The translations under genes and the position numbers were made by a program. A DNA stretch of 64,000 nucleotides. Origin: Alkalidesulfovibrio alkalitolerans DSM 16529 (GTDB taxonomy: Bacteria; Desulfobacterota; Desulfovibrionia; Desulfovibrionales; Desulfovibrionaceae). Location: positions 62,001-126,000 of the forward strand of contig NZ_ATHI01000005.1 of the NCBI RefSeq assembly GCF_000422245.1, read 5' to 3'. This document shows, piece after piece, positions 51,290-52,235 of the stretch (the first letter of the stretch is position 1; every line of letters begins with the position of its first letter). The notes under the pieces are model-generated. The model was not told where the DNA came from. It ran no database searches and saw only the letters and a list, made by a program, of their open reading frames with translations.

Positions 51290-51317
51290 TAAAGATCGCA
51301 ACCCCTTCAGCCGATAA
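51290..51317 (+). promoter_or_regulatory. Sigma-28 (FliA) promoter of the FlgM-associated gene
   Basis: TAAAGATC (51290-51297), 12 bp, GCCGATAA (51310-51317). The -10 box is a perfect match to the sigma-28 consensus and the -35 keeps TAAA. Counting from TAAA the gap to the -10 box is 16 bp. The following ATG is at 51344. Confidence 0.72.
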
Positions 51318-51343
51318 CGCTGGCGAAAGGGAGTGAATCAACC

Positions 51344-51757
51344 ATGCTCACCAACCCCTACTCCGTCCGCGCCATGCTGCGCACCTACGGCAAGCAGCTC
51401 GTCACGGGCCGCAGGCTGGCGAGGTATTTGCGCGGCGCGCGGGAGCCCGACGCGGCGGACGACGCCGGGCTGCGAAGCGCCAGGCGCCGGGCGCTGGTGG
51501 AGAAGGTGGCGCGGGAGATCATCGACAACCTGCTCGTGGCCGGGGAGGAAAACCCGCTCGTTGAGGAGATCAAGGAGGCCTTGAACGAACGATTCAGGTC
51601 TCGGCTTCTTTTCGAATATCCTTTTCTGGAACAGGAGTTGCAAATTTTTCGCGAGACGCCGGGCGGTGTCCAGGAATTGACGCCTCCTGAAATGAACGAA
51701 GTTCTTGTCGCCTTGTGGGACATCACAACGCAAAAGGTTGACGAGACAATGCTTTAG
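51344..51757 (+). CDS. FlgM-associated protein, DVU0524-like
   Basis: A 137-residue protein encoded just upstream of flgM. It is mostly helical, with the basic RTYGKQLVTGRRLARYLRG early, VEKVAREIIDNLLVAGEENPLVEEIKEAL in the middle and an acidic, hydrophobic FEYPFLEQELQIF near residue 90. It matches, as far as I recall, the DVU0524 family found next to flgM in Desulfovibrio; its biochemical role is not established. It is driven by a sigma-28 promoter, so it should be expressed late in flagellar assembly. Confidence 0.75.
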   Translation: MLTNPYSVRAMLRTYGKQLVTGRRLARYLRGAREPDAADDAGLRSARRRALVEKVAREIIDNLLVAGEENPLVEEIKEALNERFRSRLLFEYPFLEQELQIFRETPGGVQELTPPEMNEVLVALWDITTQKVDETML

Positions 51758-51784
51758 CACGAAGGCTCGATCGGCCCTGAAAAC

Positions 51785-51812
51785 TAAAGAATACCGCGCC
51801 GCCGACCGATAG
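51785..51812 (+). promoter_or_regulatory. Sigma-28 (FliA) promoter of flgM
   Basis: TAAAGAAT (51785-51792), 12 bp, ACCGATAG (51805-51812). The gap between TAAA and the -10 box is 16 bp, identical to the promoter 495 bp upstream. The -10 shares CCGATA with the consensus. It implies autoregulation: FliA would drive its own anti-sigma factor. Confidence 0.6.
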
Positions 51813-51865
51813 AGTTCTTGACAACCTTTCGGGCTGATGTATCCCCGAAAGGAAGGCAGGGAACC

Positions 51866-52174
51866 ATGGAAATCAAAAAGCTGCTGGTAGGGGCCAACCC
51901 TTACGAAAAGACCGTCGAAAAGATCGACCGCGAGCGCGCCGAGGCGGCCGCCAAGGCCCGCAAGGCCGAGGCCACCGGCGACAAGGTCGCCATTTCCGAG
52001 GACGCGGCCCTGCGCAGCGTGGCCGTGCGAGCGGCCACGGTCGAGCCGGACACGCGCGCCGAAAAGATCGCGGCCTTGAAGGCCCAGATCCAAAACGGCA
52101 CCTACGAGCCCGACAACAAGAAGATCGCCGAGGGCATCGTGCGCGAGGACCTGAGCATCTTCCTCCAGTCCTGA
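51866..52174 (+). CDS. flgM: Anti-sigma-28 factor FlgM
   Basis: A 102-residue protein that binds FliA and is exported when the hook is complete. The C-terminal sigma-binding part is recognisable: TRAEKIAALKAQIQNGTYEPDNKKIAEGIVREDLSIFL. The N-terminal half is charged and low-complexity, as expected for a disordered exported tail. AGGAAGG precedes ATG 51866. Confidence 0.93.
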   Translation: MEIKKLLVGANPYEKTVEKIDRERAEAAAKARKAEATGDKVAISEDAALRSVAVRAATVEPDTRAEKIAALKAQIQNGTYEPDNKKIAEGIVREDLSIFLQS

Positions 52175-52206: not shown

Positions 52207-52235
52207 GGCCGGAGGCGGAGCCTCCGGCCTTTTTT
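52207..52235 (+). terminator. Intrinsic terminator of flgM
   Basis: A 10-bp stem GGCCGGAGGC (52207-52216) with GCCTCCGGCC (52220-52229), a 3-base loop, then TTTTTT. It lies 32 bases past the flgM stop. Confidence 0.85.

Follow-up and report, generated by a model that had tools for sequence, protein, structure and literature searches.

The question raised by this locus is whether two sigma-28 type promoter motifs, one preceding a 137-residue protein gene and the other preceding flgM, are equivalent late flagellar promoters, and whether the upstream protein takes part in the FlgM/FliA checkpoint. The window, which is the whole analyzed stretch of 64,000 bp, corresponds to positions 62001-126000 of contig 5 of a 3.2-Mb genome assembled in 32 contigs. 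Two genes lie on its plus strand, flanked by a divergent NAD kinase gene on one side and a CobW-type gene on the other: the gene for the 137-residue protein and flgM. The features of this two-gene unit, in window coordinates, are:

51290-51317, plus strand: P1, putative sigma-28 type promoter TAAAGATC-N12-GCCGATAA; its TAAA starts 54 bp 5' of the ATG of the 137-residue protein gene
51344-51757, plus strand: gene for the 137-residue protein, DVU0524 family (NF041863, 79.2 bits, cut-off 40)
51785-51812, plus strand: P2, putative sigma-28 type promoter TAAAGAAT-N12-ACCGATAG; its TAAA starts 81 bp 5' of the flgM ATG
51866-52174, plus strand: flgM, anti-sigma-28 factor of 102 aa (PF04316, 57.6 bits, cut-off 25; TIGR03824, 47.5 bits)
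52207-52229, plus strand: terminator-like hairpin with a T run, 3' of flgM at the end of the two-gene unit (consensus match only)

A sequence-only reading had proposed two matched sigma-28 promoters at this locus. Both pairs of boxes are present where it had placed them, as TAAA-N16-GCCGATAA (51290-51317) and TAAA-N16-ACCGATAG (51785-51812), and the proposed geometry was borne out, with TAAA starts 495 bp apart and the -10 octamer separated from TAAA by 16 bp at each site. Each site has the TAAA -35 element and the GCCGATAA-like -10 element at 15-16 bp expected of a sigma-28 promoter, and the gene for FliA is found in the same genome (238 bits, cut-off 189.6). P1 and P2 are the sole matches to TAAAG-N16-CCGATA with at most one mismatch on both strands of the 64 kb; 0.18 matches were expected in the window, and two or more occurred in 4 of 100 shuffles.

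Genome-wide, the relaxed pattern TAAAN{14,19}CCGATA yielded 10 matches versus 10 in the reversed control, a number that is not above chance and, because of this equality, is uninformative on its own, the information residing in the positions of the matches. Six of the ten are located directly 5' of family-confirmed flagellar genes, namely the DVU0524 gene, flgM, flaG (PF03646, 56.3 bits), flagellin, flgO (protein score 113.8 bits) and a second flgM-like gene, while two precede unnamed small ORFs and two lie elsewhere. Such a shared FliA site could be used for finding late genes in these bacteria. Two small ORFs of 110 and 164 aa (L004, G000:C5:283471; L005, G000:C26:48597), each preceded by a sigma-28 type site with N16 spacing, fall into no family and are candidate new late flagellar genes.

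The arrangement resembles the class 3 promoter of E. coli flgMN, where a FliA site with TAAAGAT and GCCGATAA boxes likewise lies just 5' of flgM, although the spacing of the E. coli sites, including flgMN, is 15 bp, as counted from the site list in the available part of PMC4183435, versus 16 bp here. Unlike in E. coli flgMN, the main promoter here precedes a gene, DVU0524, that is absent from E. coli. In D. vulgaris, a fliA mutant lacks the flagellum and the predicted FliA regulon comprises 16 genes, according to an excerpt of PMC3944678; among the papers listed by our search on Desulfovibrio FliA and FlgM, no mapped promoter of the DVU0524-flgM operon was noticed.

Conservation separates the two promoters. 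We found 29 relatives that possess the DVU0524 gene, from Desulfovibrionales or from unresolved Proteobacteria records; one of them (L039) was left out of the protein alignments because its gene is incomplete, and is counted among the 29 and 30 loci. In all 30 loci of the order (the window and the 29 relatives), P1 occurs as TAAAG-N15/16-nnCGA at -51 to -56 of the DVU0524 gene, with N16 in 20 loci and N15 in 10. Elsewhere in the same loci this pattern gave 13 matches over 549,674 positions, or 0.0004 per 16-bp window. Twelve further loci of the class include 11 with a strict P1, the exception being L132. Across the phylum, 20 loci were chosen by hand from 79 family matches, mostly among the high-scoring ones outside the class, and all 20 possess P1 at -42 to -73, in strict form in 14 and with a single -35 change (TCAAG or TTAAG) in 6. 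By this comparison, the predicted promoter P1 is ancestral and normally the sole promoter of the two-gene unit DVU0524-flgM. The claim that both genes are late class is therefore well supported at the level of prediction, by the motif, the presence of FliA in the genome, the regulon context and the conservation of P1.

The 137-residue protein scores above the curated cut-off of NF041863, the NCBIfam model of the 'DVU0524 family FlgM-associated protein'. This model, whose name states no more than an association, spans the first 64 residues; the FlaG-like second half discussed below lies outside it. No Pfam family was found in the window protein, and none of the papers available for searching mentions DVU0524. 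The family is present in 244 of 297 genomes of the class, in 79 of 247 genomes of a phylum sample and in none of 14 control genomes. The named association is observed in the window, where the DVU0524 gene ends at 51757 and flgM starts at 51866, and it is highly conserved elsewhere: the gene that follows is flgM in 28 of the 29 loci from the order and in 17 of the 20 phylum-wide loci (45 of 49 together). This flgM neighbor is a plain member of the FlgM family (PF04316), above the curated cut-off. Both P1 and the DVU0524 protein are, judging from these distributions, old and widely shared.

Co-occurrence was analyzed in 40 of the 297 class genomes, 20 with and 20 without the DVU0524 gene. FlgM was found in all 20 genomes with the gene, and 18 of the 20 without it also lack FlgM and flagellin. 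In G198, one of the two others, a contig end truncates the DVU0524 gene, of which the last codons are still visible. The other, G149, is a real exception, having flagellin and flgM with another gene upstream of flgM. At this locus (L135, G149:C41), a TAAAG...ACCGATAA sequence precedes flgM behind the different gene, a natural loss of the adjoining DVU0524 gene.

The two parts of the protein were examined by profile comparison, using a deep DVU0524 alignment (48 proteins) against alignments of FlaG (31 proteins) and FlgM (46 proteins). The deep DVU0524 profile matched FlaG with a probability of 92.7 over its C-terminal 60 columns, with a score of 45.2 versus 13.4 for the best of 100 column shuffles, and matched FlgM with a probability of 69.5 and a score of 32.6, the best of 100 column shuffles reaching 16.5. 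The FlgM-like match is the N-terminal part with the DxVxIS-xEAK motif. The distant members alone gave probabilities of 96.2 against FlaG and 77.7 against FlgM. The Desulfovibrionales-only profile (A1) matched FlaG in the same register with a non-significant probability of 0.6 and the FlgM profile (A2) with only 5.8; given these low values, the links of the window protein to FlaG and FlgM rest on its homology to the distant members. What is new is that the distant members carry a predicted FlaG-like C-terminal half together with a predicted FlgM-like N-terminal segment.

Among 7 distant members, Pfam lists its FlaG model for 3, with scores of 13.8 to 19.8 bits that stay below the cut-off of 23.8, and does not list it for the other 4; in the 137-residue window protein the model has no match at all. 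FlaG (PF03646) resembles the C-terminal half of the distant members with profile probabilities of 92.7 to 96.2, whereas the true flaG sits elsewhere in the window's genome; from FlgM (PF04316) the DVU0524 protein differs in having only a short N-terminal FlgM-like segment without the rest of the domain. Five short distant members (L074, L082, L085, L087 and L088) lack the FlaG-like half partly or wholly. Confidence in the AlphaFold models is low (pLDDT 65.7 and 71.6), and fold searches with them gave no significant match: HpFlaG (6jsx) ranked sixth with an E-value of 0.32 for the first model and was not among the matches listed for the second. VIA-align matches, with Z under 6, were mostly to the coiled-coil heads of Rad50, SMC and PtuA and were taken to reflect a common arrangement. 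When A1 was searched against the PDB sequences, no match fell below an E-value of 0.018.

Taken together, we favor, with a probability of roughly 0.6, the reading that P1 and P2 are FliA promoters of a late unit and that the DVU0524 protein is a FlgM partner made along with it. The use of P1 and P2 by FliA and the existence of a two-gene mRNA are what we infer from the motifs and their context: from P1, one mRNA would encode both the DVU0524 protein and FlgM, an ancestral design across the phylum in which the partner would be produced in step with FlgM. The further claim of the sequence-only reading, that the upstream protein belongs to the FlgM/FliA checkpoint, is plausible. The near-obligate linkage to flgM, the loss together with flagella and the FlgM-like and FlaG-like segments are compatible with it, whereas G149, a flagellated genome whose flgM is preceded by a gene other than DVU0524, counts against it.

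How such a partner could act is suggested by Campylobacter jejuni, where FlaG attaches to the export gate FlhA in competition with FliS-flagellin and is itself secreted, as summarized in the accessible text of PMC12445086 (citing Waller 2024). From this docking, and from the fact that a FlaG-like module is nearly always encoded with FlgM, we infer that the DVU0524 protein escorts or gates the export of FlgM. Its FlaG-like C-terminal part would dock on FlhA and its N-terminal part would handle FlgM, so that binding to FlgM or FlhA would be expected. This is the most likely mechanism, and we propose it tentatively, at a level clearly below even odds.

The alternative that fares best, though it is on the unlikely side, grants the promoters and takes the DVU0524 protein as a late protein that resembles FlaG and controls the filament or export, sharing the operon but having no contact with FlgM or FliA. 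The FlaG-like half of the family fits such a role, as do the sigma-28 type promoter of flaG itself in this genome and the control of filament length by FlaG at FlhA described in the same available text (PMC12445086). However, the flgM neighbor in 45 of 49 loci is a tighter linkage than shared late expression requires, the family has a FlgM-like N-terminal segment, and a true FlaG coexists in the genome. An improbable alternative is that the protein acts in the cytoplasm as an anti-anti-sigma or FliA-binding factor, in which DxVxIS-xEAK copies the start of the sigma-binding domain of FlgM and competes for FliA; the N-terminal match (probabilities 69.5 and 77.7, above 100 shuffles) speaks for it, but the segment reaches no further than the beginning of the FlgM domain, and both the window protein and the Pseudodesulfovibrio loci have it in decayed form.

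In contrast to P1, the second promoter has a narrow distribution. The gap between the DVU0524 gene and flgM is approximately 25-33 bp in most relatives and contains no second site, which means that flgM in these genomes is read from P1 or from something invisible to a motif scan. A TAAAG-type P2 was found in four genomes, the three of the genus (the window's genome, L037 and G061) and G183, all with a gap of more than about 100 bp. In the genus the gap is 108-118 bp, and P2 takes the form TAAAG-N16 with CCGATA at -79 to -91 of flgM in all three genomes. A TAAAG-type P2 is absent from G116 despite a gap of 102 bp, a weaker TAAT site lies in the gap of L027 and of G175, and L035 and L071 (gap of 68 bp) have no second site there. 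A fortuitous P2 motif in the widened gap, with flgM read from P1 only, would agree with its absence from most relatives and with a relaxed motif that is not rare genome-wide, yet chance is a poor explanation for boxes kept in three of three genus genomes at -79 to -91 despite differing inter-box sequence.

The predicted promoter P2 is accordingly placed as a derived, recent extra confined to a few genomes, not as an equal partner of P1. Of the proposed 'two matched promoters', the presence of both motifs stands and their equality does not, P1 being ancestral and P2 restricted to few genomes. Under the favored reading of a late unit with a co-made partner, the intergenic gap would have grown to 108-118 bp in the genus and P2 would have been added. 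As P2 could produce FlgM by itself, the FlgM level could increase independently of the partner, with a stronger brake on FliA. The leader between P2 and flgM (51819-51866) can form a 9-bp hairpin, and the genus relatives pair with different arms. We do not claim this hairpin, since its folding z-scores (-1.5, +0.7 and -1.2 in the genus, -1.7 in G183) are not clearly better than those of shuffles.

A second, short FlgM-like gene was observed in the same genome, at G000:C32:88146-88340 (L069, 1468-1662, minus strand; PF04316, 29.2 bits, positions 20-54). It occurs in all three genus genomes (L069, L122 and L123) with 64-66 codons, comprising the C-terminal sigma-binding half only. It is possible that the short protein serves as an anti-sigma factor and is not exportable.

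It can be speculated that these elements form one scheme, which we regard as doubtful when taken as a whole: a dedicated FlgM partner, used across the phylum, would couple the export of the anti-sigma factor to filament assembly, with its FlgM-like segment and its FlaG-like FlhA-docking module acting at the export gate, in this genus P2 would uncouple FlgM from the partner, and the short FlgM, with its own sigma-28 type promoter and no N-terminal half, would be an extra, perhaps non-exportable, brake. In Salmonella, sigma-28 itself was reportedly described, by Aldridge in 2006, as the export chaperone of FlgM. If an entire phylum instead relies on a dedicated partner that carries an export-gate module, there would be a second solution for the hook-to-filament checkpoint, and a testable job would fall to a protein so far described simply as FlgM-associated.

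The short flgM of the three genus genomes has a sigma-28 type site just 5' of it, with N17 spacing in two and as a TTAA variant with N16 in the third. Second FlgM-like copies also occur in other genera of the family, and among 20 further second copies (L152-L171) a sigma-28 type site with a score of at least 19 precedes 10 and none precedes the other 10.
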